This document shows, piece by piece, positions 24-914 of a DNA stretch of 49,855 bases. This DNA comes from an uncultured Alphaproteobacteria bacterium. Its GTDB lineage: Bacteria; Pseudomonadota; Alphaproteobacteria; CAAGCB01; CAG-977. Each line of letters opens with the position of its first letter. The first letter of the stretch is position 1. The translations under genes were made by a program, and so were the position numbers. The notes under the pieces were generated by a model. That model was not told the DNA's origin. It made no database searches and saw only the letters and a program-made list of their open reading frames with translations. The stretch spans positions 1-49,855 of the forward strand of contig CALYBD010000017.1 of assembly GCA_944393745.1 (NCBI GenBank), given 5' to 3'.

Positions 24-668
24 TTATTTATTAACGCAGCAACAACCGTCGGCGGACAACGTCATGCGTGACGGACAAGTGTTGACCGTGTTCGTCTTCG
101 TCGGTTCTTGTTCGTTCTTGACACATTCACCGTCTACATTGCTGTAACCGGAGTTACAGGTAAATGTTGAAGATCCGCTGCATATCGCATTTGCCGGACA
201 GGACAGACAGCTTCCGTTGGATAAATAACGTCCCGAATTGCAAGAAGTGCACTGAGTACTTTTAGATCCTGAACACGTCTGACACGATGGATCGCATTTT
301 TTGCAAGTTGATTCGTCATTAAAATAACCGTCTCCGCATTGTATGGTATATCCGTCACAACTCGCGCCCGCGGGACAAGGCAAACAAAAAGATCCGGAAA
401 TATAAAAATTTTGCGCGCAAGCTCTGCATTTTATATCGTTACTCTCACGACCGGTGTTATATCCGACAACACAATTTCGATCCATACAGATATAATCTCC
501 CCAATCATCTTTATAATTAATTTTAAAACCGTAGTCTTCACAGGAACATTTCCCGATTATCCATTCGTCTCGGCTACCATAAGGAATATAGCAATCGCTT
601 TTGGCGATTAAGGGAGGCAAAAGAAAGATAAGCAAGCTTATCGTAAAAGTTAAGGTTGATTTTTTCAT
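24..668 (-). CDS. Secreted cysteine-rich protein, function unknown
   Basis: The protein is 214 residues from the chosen start. It opens with two lysines and a hydrophobic run (TLTFTISLLIFLLPPLIA), a clear Sec signal peptide. The mature part holds about 26 cysteines in roughly 190 residues, mostly as CxxC and CPxGxxC-like blocks (for example CKKCDPSCQTC, LPCPAGASC, LSCPANAIC), ending in a CCC cluster near the C-terminus. This pattern resembles EGF/furin-like or GCC2/GCC3-type disulfide-rich repeats, so an exported, disulfide-bonded surface or secreted protein is likely. An ATG 33 nt upstream (701) is also in frame. I prefer 668 because AAGGA (679-683) lies 10 nt before it and the signal peptide then starts cleanly. 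A terminator-ended RNA lies directly upstream, so the gene may be controlled by attenuation or may simply follow an sRNA gene. No enzyme motif is visible. Confidence 0.8.
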   Translation of the reverse strand: MKKSTLTFTISLLIFLLPPLIAKSDCYIPYGSRDEWIIGKCSCEDYGFKINYKDDWGDYICMDRNCVVGYNTGRESNDIKCRACAQNFYISGSFCLPCPAGASCDGYTIQCGDGYFNDESTCKKCDPSCQTCSGSKSTQCTSCNSGRYLSNGSCLSCPANAICSGSSTFTCNSGYSNVDGECVKNEQEPTKTNTVNTCPSRMTLSADGCCCVNK

Positions 669-696
669 CTCTGAACAATCCTTTTTGTTTTGGTTA

Positions 697-722
697 AACA
701 AAAACCTACCTTTTCAGGTAGG
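697..722 (-). terminator. Intrinsic terminator ending the structured RNA
   Basis: On the minus strand a 7-bp stem (CCTACCT / AGGTAGG) closes a GAAA tetraloop and is followed directly by TTTTTG. There is no T-run on the plus-strand side, so it acts on minus-strand transcripts. It ends 14 nt before the Shine-Dalgarno of the cysteine-rich gene, a position also typical of a leader attenuator. Confidence 0.75.
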
Positions 723-902
723 CGGATGTTCAGAAACCGTATAGAGATTTACGGCTCGACCTATTAGGCGTAAGTAGCCGTATTCAGCCGACATCCGCCT
801 GCATAGGACAGAAATCGGCACAAACGTTTAAAGTCGCTATATGCATTGCGACTATCTCTAAAAGGGTTTCTGACGCCCTGGGTCGTTGATTTAAACGACT
901 TG
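697..902 (-). ncRNA. Unidentified ~200-nt structured RNA with a crossing (pseudoknot) helix
   Basis: This RNA fills the only gene-free stretch over 300 bases (669-1011). Read 5' to 3' on the minus strand, the pairings are: hairpin 894-899/882-887; a two-part long-range helix 865-873/730-738 (9 bp) plus 854-860/742-748 (7 bp); hairpin 848-853/832-837 stacked directly on that helix; a 9-bp helix 791-799/721-729; and hairpin 776-782/750-756. The 9-bp helix 791-799/721-729 crosses the long-range helix, which makes a pseudoknot, or else the two are alternative folds. A TATAAT box just upstream and a terminator at the end define a discrete transcript. I compared it from memory with tmRNA, 6S, SRP RNA, RNase P RNA and common riboswitches and found no diagnostic core. 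It could be a stand-alone sRNA or the leader of the downstream cysteine-rich gene. Confidence 0.6.
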
Positions 903-908
903 AAAAAA

Positions 909-914
909 ATTATA
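909..914 (-). promoter_or_regulatory. Consensus -10 box for the structured RNA
   Basis: TATAAT reads on the minus strand and places the transcript start near 902, at the base of the first hairpin of the RNA. The -35 region is poor (a TGGATT-like match at the right distance), so the promoter may be weak or activator-dependent. Confidence 0.5.

Follow-up and report, generated by a model that had tools for sequence, protein, structure and literature searches.

What is the structured RNA encoded just before a secreted-protein gene in an uncultured gut alphaproteobacterium, and what does it do to that gene? The window analysed here is a stretch of 49,855 nucleotides of contig CALYBD010000017.1. 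On its minus strand a helix-bearing region runs from a TATAAT box (914-909) to a terminator (723-704). The initial annotation described this region as an unidentified, pseudoknotted RNA. We consider it probable that gut Alphaproteobacteria use this RNA as an antisense-RNA switch of the c4/Xcc1 type, placed before genes whose products are secreted or sit in the outer membrane.

One RNA with two mutually exclusive folds

The view of the region as a discrete RNA, running from promoter to terminator and unmatched in Rfam at threshold, is supported. No Rfam family reaches its gathering score across the 50-kb window, a significant match being one of two outcomes that the initial annotation had named as counting against its reading, and ARAGORN finds neither a tRNA nor a tmRNA. 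The fold energy of -80 kcal/mol, compared with -50.5 for shuffles (z -6.6), and the compensated changes among copies uphold the earlier argument that the complementarity is too good for chance. Both ends were correctly recognized: the TATAAT box lies at 909-914, and the GAAA-loop terminator, previously given as 705-722, spans 723-704. A generic promoter scan of the window did not call the -10 box at 914-909; a GCTATAAT-like box is found at equal spacing in most same-genus copies. The elements of the transcript and of its precursor fold are as follows.

909..914, minus strand: -10 box TATAAT, read directly, with a possible -35 box CTGGAT at 938-933
882..899, minus strand: 5' hairpin GUCGUU/AACGAC, from the fold; the stem letters vary among copies and the pairing is kept
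865..873, minus strand: a1-like strand (A) UCAGAAACC, which pairs with a' GGUUUCUGA at 738-730; all cells (100%) paired among the 34 copies
854..860, minus strand: b1-like strand UAGAGAU, which pairs with b' AUCUCUA at 748-742 (own-locus pairing test)
832..853, minus strand: leader hairpin AGUCGC 853-848 / GCGACU 837-832; 95% of cells paired
787..819, minus strand: precursor hairpin GCCGAU/GUCGGC (819-814/792-787); 97.5% of cells paired, three pairs with double changes
704..723, minus strand: intrinsic terminator GCCUACC-UGAAAA-GGUAGGU followed by UUUUGUUU, from a terminator search; the stem varies among copies and the pairing is kept

In the precursor fold (state 1) the long-range helix 873-865/738-730, its extension 860-854/748-742 and the stacked hairpin 853-848/837-832 all sit where they had been proposed, and the long-range helix covaries, with double changes at two pairs of a1:a' in the 34 copies. 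They are joined by helix 819-814/792-787 and by GGCU/AGCC at 779-776/756-753. Over the same copies 93.4% of the cells of state 1 are paired, double-change cells number 101 compared with 29 in shuffles, and covariation is 0.266 compared with 0.104. A further proposed hairpin (UACGGCU 782-776 / AGCCGUA 756-750) is present, with conservation that is only partial. The precursor hairpin would hold the 5' strand of the processed RNA described below. The leader hairpin occupies the site of the leader terminator of P1 and Xcc1-type loci; here it is without a clear U-run.

The second fold (state 2) is that of a shorter, predicted product.

704..799, minus strand: predicted processed c4-like RNA of about 96 nt, with a putative 5' end at the GG of the closing-stem foot
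791..799, minus strand: closing stem, 5' strand GGCGGAUGU; 97.8% of cells paired, with double changes
721..729, minus strand: closing stem, 3' strand ACAUCCGCC; supported by the covariation of the closing stem
756..791, minus strand: inner stem UCGGC 791-787 / GUCGA 760-756; 100% of cells paired, two pairs with double changes
737..754, minus strand: hairpin CCGU...ACGG (754-751/740-737) displaying the antisense loop b' (748-742); supported by covariation and own-locus pairing

The 9-bp helix reported to cross the first one is also in place, and it forms the closing stem (799-791/729-721) of this predicted RNA. Together, the closing stem, the inner stem and the b' hairpin have 98.8% of their cells paired in the 34 copies, with 20 double-change cells compared with 5 in shuffles and a covariation of 0.180 compared with 0.107. 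In the energy model the 704..799 RNA folds on its own into a c4-like structure. Its extent is the same as that of the mapped 88-nt sRNA-Xcc1 and the 77-nt c4, and the AAUA...AAUA internal loop of its inner stem is common to sRNA-Xcc1. By analogy the RNase P cut would fall at the base of the closing stem on its 5' side, near 799, and the GG at 799-798 agrees with the GG start given for such RNAs (PMC5320573). States 1 and 2 use common strands and are therefore mutually exclusive, which the initial annotation had considered for the crossing helices. Its other description, a static stand-alone pseudoknot, is not supported; exclusive states fit better, and the segments are arranged and spaced as in phage P1 c4.

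Copies, antisense pairing and downstream genes

A DNA search places the element at 24 sites in this genome, and it also occurs in most of the genus and family members examined. Model R1, a covariance model built on the 34 copies, finds 15 strong copies in this genome, plus fragments; of 385 Alphaproteobacteria sampled with it, 19 contain matches. Scanning the GTDB species genomes for the pattern gave 71 stretches, nearly all in records labelled as alphaproteobacterial or proteobacterial MAGs and many from gut or rumen; one comes from a record labelled Gastranaerophilales. The long-range-helix pattern has no match in IMG/VR, nor does a plasmid BLAST with a bridging homologue as the query return one. 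The layout of promoter, RNA, terminator and Shine–Dalgarno (SD) sequence is conserved over multiple copies, and nearly all copies have the terminator.

Some copies are broken. Four of them (L207-L210; contigs C57:12856-12931, C18:1-76, C5:2-77 and C24:38923-38996 of genome G000) all break off at one shared position, GGCGGAT of the closing stem. There an identical sequence takes over and continues to the contig end; it is probably a multi-copy insertion element targeting the RNA gene. In three others (L013, L033 and L034) the RNA match stops just past GGTTTCTGA, inside the a' strand, and gives way to a different, mutually similar sequence. A phage-type integrase gene lies near L033 and L034, therefore the RNA gene may serve as an attachment site.

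The initial annotation overlooked that a' is also complementary to AGGAUUGUUCAGAGAUG (682-666), the region around the ribosome-binding site of the gene that follows.

724..738, minus strand: a' antisense or switching strand GGUUUCUGAACAUCC, complementary to a1 and to the SD region
666..682, minus strand: a2-like target, with AGGA SD 682-679, UGUUCAGA 677-670 and AUG 668-666, complementary to a' 734-724
24..668, minus strand: gene predicted to be controlled, the ORF after a2; its 214-aa product is a cysteine-rich secreted protein that has a signal peptide

The pairing energy of a' is -21.6 kcal/mol with a1 (b' included), compared with -18.1 kcal/mol with the SD region. Near-perfect complements of a' and target occur in other gut copies (GGAUGUUCUGAAAUG in L117, GGUGUUCAGAACAUG in L106), and variants of a' come with matching variants of the target: UUUGUAACAUCC with GGAUUUUACAAA, UUUUCGAACAUCC with GGAAUGUUCGAAAA and UUUCUGAGAUCC with GGAAUCUCGGAAA. 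Both pairings, a':a1 and a':a2, covary between loci. The score of a' is 11.01 against its own SD region, 10.19 against those of other loci and 6.2 against shuffled targets (0/2000 permutations), a signal that is in part conservation and not covariation, because a' is identical at many loci.

The b' loops, on the other hand, are hypervariable, with 72 distinct loops among 83 copies. Against its own b1 strand b' scores 10.42, compared with 5.21 for permuted loci (0/1000 permutations). All 14 of the copies tested in this genome have a distinct b1:b' pair, with the strongest pairing always between own partners; cross-pairing among them scores 4.68, equal to shuffled sequence (4.76). Paired arms that change without compensation, the second outcome named as counting against the initial reading, are decisively absent, given this covariation and own-locus pairing. 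We see no excess pairing of b' with a b2 site in cis at the gut copies (7.22 with the downstream sequence, 7.32 when permuted, 756/1000), which appear to have lost b2.

The genes behind the gut copies are mostly of one class. In 71 of 81 gut loci the downstream gene encodes a secreted protein or a lipoprotein, or 88% compared with a background of 23%, where a signal-type N-terminus is called by a crude hydrophobicity rule and the background is the long ORFs of the same loci. An outer-membrane barrel is among them, as are some cysteine-rich proteins with a weak likeness to Giardia VSP. A phage antirepressor is not what these 81 loci control, with their 71 signal-peptide or lipoprotein genes. 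The window gene (24-668) and those at L002, L003, L004, L006, L009, L020 and L029 form one secreted cysteine-rich family in which leader and signal peptide hardly vary. The bodies of these proteins differ, some being weakly similar to Giardia variant surface proteins, and several of the copies are at contig ends. By eye, the gene after one gut copy (L119) resembles an EcoRI-type DNA methyltransferase.

Relationship to sRNA-Xcc1, c4 and IsrK

The best sub-threshold Rfam match of the window RNA is sRNA-Xcc1 (RF02221), at 30.4 bits compared with a gathering score of 53 bits; the best gut copy scores 40.7. Such sub-threshold matches fall at exactly the corresponding position in 12 of 20 gut loci, and in bridging alphaproteobacterial homologues the scores rise to between 38 and 52 bits. 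One bridging sequence, L091, is matched by both models (43.2 bits for R1, 51.7 bits for RF02221). The genes at these bridging homologues include Cro/C1-type regulators and a DNA methylase (N6/N4, L094). The mature-RNA fold of RF02221, consisting of a closing stem, an inner stem with the AAUA loop, the b' hairpin and a', is present in the window RNA. The two also share a CCG(b')CGG hairpin and a placement between upstream a1/b1 strands and a downstream SD target.

We find RF02221 in 58 of 398 sampled Pseudomonadota genomes. Its loci follow a plan of an upstream strand, the RNA and then a start-site sequence that repeats the upstream strand, e.g. upstream CCGAAAACCCCAUACGUAAG, RNA CUUACGUCGGUUUUCGG and downstream CCGAAAGGAGACGUAAG then AUG at L204. 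Over 29 RF02221 loci the complementarity is 18.4 compared with 12.3 upstream and 11.66 compared with 9.57 downstream (0/2000 permutations each). The genes that follow include Bro-N, KilA-N, P22 antirepressor (P22_AR), Rha and SymE. The loci L176-L205, from other Pseudomonadota, bear unannotated a1/b1 sites upstream and a2/b2 sites downstream. As these sites stand before antirepressors or symE, sRNA-Xcc1 (RF02221) looks like one half, the processed one, of a c4-type switch that serves those genes and whose a1/b1 and a2/b2 sites were overlooked; if so, the targets of sRNA-Xcc1 could be read from each locus. Rfam groups C4 with c4-a1b1 in one clan (CL00128) and assigns RF02221 to none. The portions of the Xcc1 literature covered by our limited search treat sRNA-Xcc1 as a trans-acting sRNA and do not mention a link to c4 (PMC12444791, PMC12189769, PMC2996969); we claim no priority for this link.

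Phages employ switches of this kind to keep their antirepressor genes silent. In phage P1, c4 is processed by RNase P, blocks a ribosome site and acts as an antisense RNA on target mRNAs (PMC5320573). The P1 genome record annotates the order a1, b1, c4 RNA, a2, b2, icd and ant. Like the c4 of P1 and P7 (RF01695, RF03163), our RNA has the order promoter, a1, b1, an RNA with a'/b' arms and a2 at the next SD sequence. The a1/b1 strands complementary to a'/b' and the a2 site at the SD of the next gene are both present, and the spacing of the segments, the closing stem and the b' hairpin are similar to those of P1 c4. The gut copies differ in being without b2 and without a downstream antirepressor, and in having a strong terminator between the RNA and the gene. 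The RF01695 C4 model has no match among 20 gut loci at E-values up to 0.5, and R1 fails to find P1 c4 and finds Xcc1-type loci weakly. No single score thus carries the link to c4, which we base on the shared architecture, on complementarity that is specific to each locus and on the scores of the bridging sequences.

Two further systems are similar in part. IsrK of the Gifsy-1 prophage (RF01394) also has a leader that terminates or reads into the mRNA and a ribosome-binding site hidden by leader-complementary pairing, and experiments show that this leader/read-through pair controls translation (PMC4825925). IsrK differs in that it activates the translation of anrP and stops at a terminator of its own, which lies before orf45 (PMC4825925), and its Rfam model does not match the window RNA. 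The C4-like Group 1 sRNAs of Acinetobacter baumannii, whose targets were not identified there, are likewise found in many copies per genome and are apparently processed from longer transcripts (PMC5320573). The part reported to vary among them is the a' loop, whereas in the window family it is b', with a' almost constant. Judged by sequence, the window RNA appears to be of the c4/Xcc1 type. It would differ from Xcc1 loci, which hold b2 besides a2 and precede Bro-N, KilA-N, P22_AR, Rha or SymE, in the envelope genes that it precedes, in its lost b2 and in its private b1:b' pairs.

A proposed switch and its alternatives

The anatomy of the switch is well supported, and the RNA is predicted to set whether each downstream gene is translated. 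We infer its processing, its prevailing state and direction, its action in cis or in trans, and its trigger or signal. A single promoter would produce a leader RNA that usually ends at the terminator (723-704), and read-through would produce the mRNA. With the 5' leader attached, a1 (873-865) and b1 (860-854) would hold a' (738-724) and b' (748-742), leaving the ribosome site accessible (ON). Once the 3' half folds alone, or is cut near 799 (by RNase P, in analogy with P1 c4), a' and b' would be displayed. The displayed a' would then block translation (OFF) by pairing, either in cis or on the mRNAs of other copies, with the SD/AUG region (682-670). State 1 is the most favourable fold in the leader-attached energy model, where local structure leaves the SD sequence only about 37% unpaired. 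With the leader removed at 799, the minimum-energy fold shifts from a1:a' to an SD-sequestering a':a2 pairing (734-724 with the ribosome site). These models suggest that leader-attached RNA is translatable and that processed or refolded RNA silences in cis. Sister genes may perhaps be silenced in trans, because a' is common to the copies.

How far the RNA acts in trans is the subject of one alternative, which we think rather unlikely. Here the terminated RNA would itself be the product of a purely trans-acting sRNA family, whose common a' represses a2-bearing surface-protein mRNAs as a regulon, and the cis layout would be a trace of duplication. The terminator in nearly all copies, the a' strands and SD targets common among copies, the Hfq encoded in the genome and the antisense action of c4 on target mRNAs in P1 (PMC5320573) are all consistent with this, and the largely conserved a' makes cis and trans action inseparable by sequence. 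However, a1:a' and b1:b' self-pairing is kept locus by locus and a':a2 pairing at the own locus exceeds that with other loci, which points to a cis role. A mobile repeat, MITE-like or a phage remnant, whose structure stems from its spread and has no present function, would account for the many copies, often near contig ends, and for those broken by insertions. We regard this as highly improbable, since diverged copies keep their covariation, promoter, terminator and SD pairing, and 88% of the downstream genes are of the signal type compared with a background of 23%.

A metabolite-binding riboswitch, acting through the terminator and SD sequestration and present in multiple copies as c-di-GMP riboswitches are, could also control envelope genes. 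The many copies per genome, the envelope genes downstream in 71 of 81 loci, the highly conserved unpaired AAUA and GAGCCGU segments and the three GGDEF proteins encoded in the genome would fit such a riboswitch. Yet the AAUA...AAUA core is also found in sRNA-Xcc1, which precedes phage antirepressors and symE, the anatomy and its order agree with c4, and locus-private b1:b' pairs are ill-suited to a common aptamer; we find a riboswitch very doubtful. A c-di-GMP riboswitch in particular, raised by the copy number and the GGDEF genes, was dropped given the c4 anatomy. The initial suggestion of a "sensor leader or a free sRNA" therefore holds for a leader and/or sRNA of a secreted-protein gene, but not for a ligand sensor.

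An antisense switch of the c4/Xcc1 type at these loci would carry a phage-lysogeny switch (c4/IsrK type) over to the chromosomes of uncultured gut bacteria, where its many copies, with their private locks, would control secreted and outer-membrane proteins. A bolder proposal, which we offer tentatively and would lean against, is that gut Alphaproteobacteria have recruited an antisense RNA of phage immunity as an address system that spans the genome and serves their surface proteins. In such a system a' and its ribosome-site target would be common and the b1:b' lock private, so that silencing is common and release is per locus. If true, this address system could allow the members of a surface-protein repertoire, among them cysteine-rich proteins that resemble variant surface proteins, to be expressed selectively or to the exclusion of one another.
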